From Candidatus Limnocylindria bacterium (GTDB taxonomy: Bacteria > Chloroflexota > Limnocylindria > P2-11E), in the NCBI GenBank assembly GCA_036523395.1, contig DATDEH010000072.1:72441-136440 (forward strand): a DNA stretch of 64,000 bases, read 5' to 3'. Below the pieces are notes generated by a model. The model searched no databases. It saw only the letters and a list, made by a program, of their open reading frames with translations, and was not told the origin of the DNA. This document shows, piece after piece, positions 17,018-53,291 of this stretch (positions are counted from its first letter, which is position 1; the number at the start of each line of letters is the position of its first letter). Both the position numbers and the translations under genes were made by a program.

Positions 17018-17847
17018 CCGCTCCTAGGGGTCCGCAGCCTTTCCCGGGGCAGGAGAAGCGGCTCCGGCTGCTCGCGTTCGTCCGTCAGGACTCCGTCGTG
17101 CGCGTCGACAAGCGCGTCGAGGACACCGCGATGGTCTGGCCGCACTTGCTCGTCATCGAATTCATCGCGGCGATGATCTGGTCGCTCGGCTTGTTCGTGA
17201 TCGCCGCCTTGTTCAACGCGCCATTGCAGGACCACTCAACAGTGGACTGCACCCCCAACCCCTCGAAGGCGCCGTGGTACCTGCTGAACCTCCAGGAGCT
17301 GCTCCTTCACATGGATAAGGGGCTCGCCGGCGTCGTCGTCCCGACGATCTGGCTCACGTTCATGGCGGTCATCCCGTACATCGACCGCGACCGGTCGGGT
17401 ATCGGCCATTGGTTCACCAACGAGATCGGGAAGCGCACGGCCATCTTCTCCACGGTCTTCACCGGCGTGATCGTGTCGGGGCTCATCGCGATCGATGCCG
17501 TGGTAAAGGTCGATCGTCGTGTCTTGGATCCTGCGACCGGCATCAAAACGGGTTGGCCGGGCTACGCCGAGTTCGCGAGCCAATACTTCCCGGGCGGCCG
17601 AGAGCTTATCCCGAACTACGTGATCCCGATCACTCTGATGCTCGTTCTGCCGGTCGTGCTCGTGGTGCTCTGTAAACGCCTGTTCGGTGCGGGCACGCGC
17701 GAATGGATGATCGCGATCTTCACGGGCTTCGTCGTCACGTATGTCGTGCTGACCGTCGTCGGCACCTCGTTACGCGGCCCAGGGATGGACCTGTACGCGC
17801 CGTGGGCGCTGCCGGAGACTCATCAATGCTTCGCGCCGAGTCCTTGA
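17014..17847 (+). CDS. qcrC: Cytochrome b/b6 C-terminal (subunit IV-like) protein of the bc complex
   Basis: 277 residues, three to four transmembrane helices after a 50-residue N-terminal extension. [20 protein letters not shown] corresponds to the Qo-site PEWY region, but reads APWY without the acidic residue. It forms the C-terminal half of cytochrome b and pairs with the product of 16077-16808. GTG at 17014. The Rieske gene follows 1 bp after its stop. The gene symbol follows the three-gene Qcr nomenclature and is tentative because naming differs between phyla. Confidence 0.88.
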
Positions 17848-47093: not shown

Positions 47094-47492
47094 GTGAAGC
47101 GCGTCCTCTTCCTCTGCGCCCATAACTCGGCCCGATCACAGATGGCCGAGGGATTCCTGCGCTCATACGCCGGCGACCGCTTTGAGGTCCAGAGCGCAGG
47201 TACGAAGGCGACGGGGGTCCATCCGCTGGCTGTCTCGGTCATGCGCGAGCTCGGCGTCGACATCTCCCAGCAGACCAGCAAATCCGTCGATGAGGTGGGC
47301 GAAGGCTGGGACGTCGTCGTGACCGTCTGTGACTCGAGCTGCCCCGTGCCGCCACGCACCGGCCTGAAGCTTCGCTGGAAGTTGCCGGACCCGTCGGCCG
47401 CGCGCGGCACCGAAGCCGAGCGCCTCGAGGTCTTCCGCGGCGTGCGCGACGCCATCCGATCCCGCGTCCGCTTGCTCGCCGATCGCATCTGA
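47094..47492 (+). CDS. arsC: Arsenate reductase, low-molecular-weight phosphatase type
   Basis: 132 residues. VLFLCAHNSARSQMAEGFL has the C-x5-R P-loop with catalytic Cys. VVTVCDSSCPVPP contains a Cys pair that could form the thiol relay used by thioredoxin-coupled ArsC. It reduces arsenate, or acts as a protein tyrosine phosphatase. GTG at 47094. No ars operon genes are adjacent, so the specific role is uncertain. Confidence 0.85.
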   Translation: MKRVLFLCAHNSARSQMAEGFLRSYAGDRFEVQSAGTKATGVHPLAVSVMRELGVDISQQTSKSVDEVGEGWDVVVTVCDSSCPVPPRTGLKLRWKLPDPSAARGTEAERLEVFRGVRDAIRSRVRLLADRI

Positions 47493-51304: not shown

Positions 51305-52231
51305 CTAGCGGGTCAGCGACGCGATGAACCGCTCGGCGTTGCGATAGGCGATGGCCTCCGCGACGTCTGGCGGAAGCTGCGAGAGCCATCCACGGATGCC
51401 CTTCACGATCTCGGGGTACGTATCCCAGCGCTCGTTGCCCGTGAACGTGCCACCGACGGTCCATGTGTCGGTGCCGATCATGAAGCGGCCGCCGTGCCGG
51501 ATGAGCAGCTCGCGCCACCGCGGGTCGAGTGTGCCGTTCGACGCGATGTCGGTCCGCAGCGAGAGCTCGACCGACAGTTTCGGCCATGAGTCGAGCAGGG
51601 CCGCGATCTGTTGGGGCGTCGCATCGACGCCCGCGTGCGCCCACAGCACCGTTGCATCCGGAACGTAGTTCAGCAGCTCCGCGACCGCGCGCGCGTCGGC
51701 GTGCGGCTGAAGAAATAGCTTCTCGCGCTGCGCGAGCGCGAGGACGCCGCGCACGGCCGCCAGTCCCATCTGGCCGACGACGAGATGAAACTCGCCGAAG
51801 CCGCGGTGCATGCCGGGTCGGTAGATCGATTCGACGTAGGGGACGATCGACGGATCGCGCGCCCACGAGAACACGTCGGCCACGTTGCGATATGGACCCA
51901 GCATCGGAATGACACGATCGCCGAGGACGGCTTTCAGCTTGAATGTGCCCTCGTCAGGCGCGCTCGATACCAGGCCCGAGCGAACGCCGGCCGCGTCCAG
52001 GATCTTCGCGACCCTCTCCGGCGCATACGCCGACCACGCCGCCGCGCTGTAGTGGAGGTGTGCATCGAAGAGCGGCATCACCCCTGGTGTCGGTGTCGGT
52101 GACGGGGTGGGCGTTGGTGTCGGCGTCGGCGAGAGCGTTGGTGCAATGAACGTCGGTGAGGCCGTCGTCGGGGCCGTCGCCATAGGCGCGCACGCGCTCG
52201 CGAGGATGAGCGCGACCAGGAGCCGGGTCAC
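51305..52231 (-). CDS. Exported amidohydrolase-family (metal-dependent TIM-barrel) lipoprotein
   Basis: 308 residues from GTG 52231. The N-terminus TRLLVALILASACAPM is a signal with a lipobox-like end. A 35-residue Thr/Pro linker (TPTPTPTPSPTPTP) precedes the hydrolase domain. PLFDAHLHYS gives the HxH metal motif, VLWAHAGVD a further His, and MIGTDTW the late Asp of amidohydrolase-2-type TIM barrels. Likely attached outside the membrane. An upstream GTG at 52261 would overlap the divergent gene; the 52231 start leaves 19 bp. Substrate unknown. Confidence 0.8.
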   Translation of the reverse strand: MTRLLVALILASACAPMATAPTTASPTFIAPTLSPTPTPTPTPSPTPTPGVMPLFDAHLHYSAAAWSAYAPERVAKILDAAGVRSGLVSSAPDEGTFKLKAVLGDRVIPMLGPYRNVADVFSWARDPSIVPYVESIYRPGMHRGFGEFHLVVGQMGLAAVRGVLALAQREKLFLQPHADARAVAELLNYVPDATVLWAHAGVDATPQQIAALLDSWPKLSVELSLRTDIASNGTLDPRWRELLIRHGGRFMIGTDTWTVGGTFTGNERWDTYPEIVKGIRGWLSQLPPDVAEAIAYRNAERFIASLTR

Positions 52232-52250
52232 CCGGTTACCGTAACGCCCT

Positions 52251-53291
52251 GTGATCTTCACAAGCGCCCGCGTGTCAGTCGCGGAATTCGAGCGCGTCGC
52301 AGGGTGGGGGTCGAAACCCGAGGGCCTTTGCCGCGGCGAGCGGTGCGTGCCGTTCCGCTCGGTCGACGCGGCCGCCGTCGAGCTGGCTGCCGCCGCGGAA
52401 GCGCTCGCGATGCCGCTCGTTCATGACGCAGCTCACGGTCTGTGGGCGCTCGGTGCGGAGGCCGGCGGTCGTGCGCTTCGCAGCGCCGCAGCGCCCGAGC
52501 TCGAGCTGCCCGACTTCCGCGGCCGAACATTCCGCTTGTCGTCACTCCGCGGGACGAAGGCGCTTCTGGTCGCCTGGGCATCGTGGTGAGGCTGCCGTCT
52601 TGACCTGCCCGTGTGGCAGGAGCTGAGGACCGAGCTCAGGCCGCGTGGTCTCGAGATCGTCACGATCGCGCTCGATGCGCGGGGCAGCGAGACCGCGGGT
52701 CCCTGGATCGCAAAGGCGGCCCCGGAACATCCCTCGCTCATCGACGAGGGGCATGTCGTCGATGCCCTCTTCGGCGTCATCAACGTCCCGAGCGGGATCT
52801 GGATCGACGAAGAGGGCACGATCGTCCGACCGCCCGAGCCCGCGCATCCCAGCCGGCCCGCGTACCTCGATCGCGCCGTGCCGCCGGACGCAACGCCCGC
52901 AGTACGTGAGGCGATAGAGCTGACCAAGGCACTGCACGTCGAGTCAGAGCGCTATGTCGCCGCGCTTCGTGATTGGGTCCAGAAAGGTGGCGAGAGTCGG
53001 TTTGCCCTCTCGCCCGATGAGGTGATCCGGCGCAGTCGGCCTCGGCCGGTCGAGGAGGCGACGGCGGCGGCGCACTTCGCGCTGGGCCAGGCGCTGTACG
53101 CTCGAGGCGCGCAGGCCGCGGCGATCGAACACTTCCGCGAGGCGCACCGTCTGCAGCCGGCGAACTGGACCTACCGCCGCGATGCGTGGAGCCTTGCCGG
53201 CGCCGATCGCGAGGCTGTCTACGGCACCAGCTGGGTCGAAGAGGTCAAACGCGAAGGCGTCGAGAAATACTACCCACCGCTCGAGCTTTAG
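52251..53291 (+). CDS. Probable selenocysteine-containing thioredoxin-fold protein (TGA read as Sec113)
   Basis: One frame of 347 codons is interrupted only by TGA at 52587-52589. Around it the protein reads ALLVAWASW-U-GCRLDLPVWQ, the position of the first Cys of a thioredoxin/TlpA active site. Downstream, LEIVTIALDARGSE, HPSLIDEGHVVDALFGV and NVPSGIWIDEEGTIV (with cis-Pro) complete the fold. A hairpin 20 nt after the TGA fits a bacterial SECIS. Residues 1-90 are a less conserved N-domain; residues about 235-346 look TPR-like (AHFALGQALYARGAQAAAIE). It probably acts as a thiol/selenol redox enzyme. No signal peptide. GTG start at 52251. A nonsense mutation is the alternative. Confidence 0.75.
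52604..52620 (+). promoter_or_regulatory. Candidate bacterial SECIS hairpin
   Basis: CCTGCC-CGTGT-GGCAGG forms a 6-bp perfect stem with a 5-nt apical loop that has G at its second position. The loop begins 20 nt after the TGA at 52587-52589, inside the window of about 16-37 nt reported for bacterial SECIS elements. It lies in the coding sequence, as expected in bacteria. Confidence 0.6.

Follow-up and report, generated by a model that had tools for sequence, protein, structure and literature searches.

A predicted selenoprotein of the WAxxUGC family of ResA-like redoxins in a Chloroflexota genome

A gene on the plus strand of the 64-kb stretch of Chloroflexota DNA analyzed here (the window) almost certainly codes for a selenoprotein that belongs to the known WAxxUGC family, also described as UGC-containing TlpA (Prx-like) proteins, as judged from sequence comparison. 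Recoding of its single in-frame UGA as selenocysteine (Sec) at position 113 is strongly supported. An earlier note on this DNA had proposed this reading, with Sec113 forming part of a U-x-C redox motif, and the proposal is supported by three lines of evidence: homologues carry either TGA or a Cys codon at the site, the genome encodes the sel machinery, and a hairpin downstream of the TGA is conserved. The features of the gene are as follows.

52251..53291, plus strand: predicted selenoprotein gene, WAxxUGC / UGC-containing ResA-like redoxin; one frame with TGA read as Sec, matching NF041054
52329..52331, plus strand: Cys27 of the N-terminal domain; Cys in 65 of 67 Sec homologues and 9 of 9 readable Cys homologues
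52344..52346, plus strand: Cys32 of the N-terminal domain; Cys in 66 of 67 Sec homologues and 9 of 9 readable Cys homologues
52482..52850, plus strand: thioredoxin fold (AhpC-TSA / ResA-like), approximately residues 78–200, with P180 as candidate cis-Pro; from Pfam, the structural model and solved folds
52587..52589, plus strand: in-frame TGA, predicted Sec113, first catalytic position; TGA in 67 of 77 distinct homologues and a Cys codon in 10
52593..52595, plus strand: Cys115, presumed resolving Cys of the U-G-C motif; 77 of 77 homologues
52604..52620, plus strand: putative bacterial SECIS apical hairpin, stem CCTGCC/GGCAGG and loop CGTGT; exact inverted repeat, frozen codons, compensatory stem changes
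53064..53165, plus strand: TPR-like helical segment, residues 272–305; TPR_2 E=4e-5, all-helical in the model

The reading frame and its homologues

When the frame was re-read, its extent, motif (AWASW-U-GCR) and length all proved to be as the earlier note had described. The TGA at codon 113 is the sole internal stop, and it lies in the context AWASW-U-GCRLDLPVWQ, where WASW-TGA-GC corresponds to residues 109–115. With the TGA read as Sec, the product is 346 aa followed by a stop, and the closest homologues begin at the same GTG/ATG. A divergent, amidohydrolase-like gene with an N-terminus like a lipoprotein signal occupies 51305–52261 of the minus strand. It begins inside or beside the GTG start of the selenoprotein gene, so that the 5′ ends of the two genes overlap or nearly touch (52229–52261), and this divergent layout is retained in the genus.

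Homologues were collected at several taxonomic depths. Within the class, the gene is carried by 8 of 177 genomes; wherever a carrier covers the site, this codon is TGA, with conservation of the protein extending to either side, and the full-length copies are 63–82% identical. A phylum search matched 12 of 400 genomes, each with exactly one in-frame TGA (12/12), and a scan of GTDB genomes yielded 77 loci. GTDB and phylum loci together, minus partial copies and duplicates, gave 77 distinct sequences from several phyla, of which 67 have TGA at the site and 10 a Cys codon, a ratio that is not a census, as the loci were sampled with peptide patterns from Sec-form sequences. At two loci outside the search pattern (L048 and L096) the residue is again Cys, and L108 carries TGA. 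Cys115 is invariant, and all homologues present U/C-x-C at the active site.

Sec forms occur in Chloroflexota, Thermomicrobiota, Rubrobacter, another Actinomycetota MAG, Acidobacteriota, Planctomycetota, Hydrogenedentota and Gammaproteobacteria, while Cys forms occur in Frankia, Gordonia, one Pirellulales MAG and a few others. The tree requires at least three changes between Sec and Cys. The Cys forms of Frankia (L049, L051–L054) and Gordonia (L059) branch within Sec lineages and have several of the hairpin pairs broken. These Actinomycetota forms have likely exchanged Sec for Cys and lost the SECIS. Some Sec-decoding relatives, such as G142 (97% complete), do not have the gene, which is thus dispensable.

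Coding constraint continues past the TGA. In the region 3′ of it, the differences from the two closest relatives fall mostly at third codon positions (105 versus 26 and 16 at the other two positions in one comparison, and 92 versus 24 and 18 in the other), and this synonymous excess matches the pattern upstream. Such clear constraint on the downstream protein speaks against the possibility that the codon is decoded as Cys or some other residue, or is read through so inefficiently that the protein works as a 112-aa product (regulatory termination). Bacterial Sec recoding is partial even with a good selenium supply, according to PMC4513850, and this lends the idea some plausibility; a 112-aa product, though, would be without most of the thioredoxin fold and without the resolving Cys, and we consider the idea very unlikely.

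Still less probable is that the TGA is a true stop, whether in a pseudogene, through an assembly error, or between two genes of 112 and 226 aa. Standard ORF calling does yield two such fragments, a split that the earlier note had correctly anticipated. Against a true stop stand the coding constraint on both sides of the TGA, the full-length match to the family model NF041054, the other full-length homologues with Cys at this position, and the identical TGA in 67 distinct homologues, whose retention is very hard to explain by chance, a sequencing error or a pseudogene. Every homologue read at the site has TGA or Cys there, and none terminates.

Selenocysteine machinery and the SECIS hairpin

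The host genome assembly consists of 128 contigs and is ~95% complete. All four genes that the earlier note had named as the ones to look for (selA, selB, selC and selD) were found in it: selB (59.1 bits), selA (509 bits, on the same contig as selB), selD (339 bits, family assignment confirmed), and a tRNA-Sec with a UCA anticodon. Within the class, selB is present in 8 of 8 carriers of the gene, and in 75 of all 177 genomes (Fisher p = 8e-4, a value that is optimistic because this test, like the codon and covariation statistics below, counts related sequences as independent).

The selD gene, on the minus strand of contig C74 of this genome (locus L013, 1501–2424), carries a TGA in frame as well, at the catalytic site (TLATCAG-U-GAKLGPG), the usual SelD position. 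SelD is accordingly predicted from its sequence to be a second, independent selenoprotein of this genome.

A genome-wide reassignment of UGA to an ordinary sense codon, for instance Trp or Gly, would also account for an in-frame TGA in a conserved gene. It is excluded by the finding that, of the 32 clear long frames that the window contains, 12 terminate with TGA, and it is further opposed by the aligned residue elsewhere, which is Cys rather than Trp or Gly, and by the complete Sec system of the genome. A scan of the window for other TGA read-through frames of coding-like composition returned one weak antisense candidate, a TGA at 17309 on the minus strand with 50 open codons of such composition on either side. 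This candidate was rejected as probably spurious, as a plus-strand frame is called across the same position. The window also contains an ArsC-like arsenate reductase of the thioredoxin type (47094–47492), which has ordinary Cys codons and scores under the curated cut-offs.

The putative SECIS hairpin starts 15 nt past the TGA. Its arms (52604–52609 and 52615–52620) form a perfect 6-bp stem around a 5-nt loop (52610–52614), and the G at loop position 2 is nt +22. Taken by itself, the hairpin shows no excess stability, either against shuffled sequence (z = −0.10) or against synonymously recoded sequence (z = +0.09), because most of the stem is fixed by the need to encode L-P-V-W-Q. Even with a permissive cut-off, a scan against Rfam brought up no relevant family in the vicinity of the TGA.

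Comparison among homologues decides the matter. Sec genes have a mean recoded-energy z of −0.74, Cys genes one of −0.22. The Pro codon of the hairpin is CCC in 61 of 67 Sec genes, versus a frequency of ~0.30 elsewhere in the same genes, and the Val codon is GTG in 57 of 63, versus ~0.34; 8 of 10 Cys genes have CCG for this Pro. Synonymous entropy is minimal at codons +5 to +10, which make up the hairpin; codons +1 to +4 before it and +15 to +19 beyond it show higher values. This freezing of synonymous sites is confined to the hairpin in Sec homologues and is absent in Cys homologues.

The stem also covaries. In 34 of 35 L-type Sec genes the outermost bases, +15 and +31, form a pair, four of them with T-A replacing C-G, and pair +16/+30 includes one T-A. 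The gammaproteobacterial (V-type) Sec genes retain the inner four pairs and the loop, with +16/+30 mismatched, while pairs +16/+30, +17/+29 and +18/+28 are often broken in Cys genes. Despite kinship among the sequences, the SECIS and codon pattern spans phyla. The hairpin is thus significant only by comparison, through synonymous sites frozen across phyla and covariation in the outer stem. The SECIS-like element claimed earlier, with its 6-bp stem, CGTGT loop and early G, is borne out both as an exact repeat and as a structure conserved beyond coding needs. In the recoding event, SelB and the Sec-tRNA(UCA) would bind this hairpin, 15–31 nt past the UGA, and Sec would be inserted at position 113 instead of termination.

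Family membership, domains and possible function

The protein matches NCBIfam NF041054 (WAxxUGC_long) with 524.6–527.4 bits against a cut-off of 300. The match extends over residues 2–345 (or 1–345) and profile positions 2–353/354, and the same model is matched by 24 of the 24 homologues tested. Since the protein shares both the full-length match and the WAxxUGC motif with this family of “ResA-like WAxxUGC motif-containing protein”, and no difference of substance was seen, it is a member. The literature contains two further listings. The Global Ocean Sampling survey of 2008 (PMC2398784) names a Prx-like (UGC-containing) selenoprotein, and a review from 2026 (PMC13188914) names a “UGC-containing TlpA disulfide reductase family protein”. 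A literature search on the exact family names returned the 2026 review alone, and the survey was reached through its reference list. Both listings share with the present protein the UGC motif, the thioredoxin fold (pfam00578 / cd02966) and Sec in the first position, and they are equated with NF041054 by motif and domain. The hosts differ, the survey sequence being a marine read and the present one coming from a Chloroflexota MAG. As the family is already catalogued, the protein is an additional member of a known selenoprotein family.

Three domains can be recognized. An AlphaFold2 model built with 24 homologues (pLDDT 93.3, pTM 0.88) comprises an N-terminal alpha/beta domain carrying Cys27 and Cys32, a thioredoxin fold, and an all-helical C-terminal part. 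Sec113 immediately precedes helix 114–132, the first helix of the thioredoxin fold in the model. Pfam AhpC-TSA is matched with 45.9 bits, and the TPR_2 match in the helical tail falls just under the Pfam cut-off. The nearest solved folds are those of ResA (4nmu and 1su9), with which a sequence profile search concurs. ResA, TlpA and DsbE structures (PDB 4nmu, 1su9, 1jfu) share the common thioredoxin fold with 23–29% identity over ~115 columns, and with an rmsd of 1.6–2.2 for most of the best matches.

Differences from these proteins are also apparent. Classical ResA and TlpA proteins have a C-x-x-C motif, whereas the U-G-C found here is one residue shorter, and the N-terminal Cys-pair domain and helical TPR-like tail are additions relative to ResA, TlpA and DsbE. 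Although AhpC-TSA is matched, the PxxxTxxC motif typical of peroxiredoxins is absent, and VAWASWUGCR is found instead. Classical ResA and TlpA are extracytoplasmic, whereas no obvious signal peptide or membrane anchor is seen here; the N-terminus, VIFTSARVSVAEFERVAGW, is without a hydrophobic segment by eye, and the protein is probably cytoplasmic.

The protein is likely to act in the cytoplasm as a selenenyl-sulfide oxidoreductase, combining its ResA-like domain with a Cys-pair domain at the N-terminus and a TPR-like helical tail. In a possible cycle, Sec113 would attack an oxidized substrate (a disulfide or a peroxide), Cys115 would resolve the adduct to give a Sec113–Cys115 selenenyl-sulfide, and a dithiol reductant, possibly the N-terminal Cys27/Cys32 pair, would restore the reduced state. 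We regard the chances of this cycle as roughly even. A bolder version, in which the protein is a self-contained three-domain selenoenzyme and Cys27/Cys32 serve as a built-in electron relay reducing the selenenyl-sulfide, is offered as a speculative and rather unlikely alternative; to our knowledge, no such relay has been described for ResA/TlpA-type enzymes. A comparison of gene neighborhoods found no operon partner conserved beyond the genus. The neighbors (amidohydrolase-like, LysM, AstE/AspA-like and UbiE/MenG-like) are conserved only within it, and so point to no functional partner and do not indicate the substrate.

While the existence of the WAxxUGC family is not itself new, the selenoprotein call corrects the annotation of a gene that ordinary ORF calling splits. 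With the ResA-like selenoprotein and SelD, selenium use by the organism extends to at least two predicted proteins. The gene also provides a clean case of a coding-region SECIS maintained by synonymous codon choice across phyla, and it highlights the conserved Cys27/Cys32 pair of the family.
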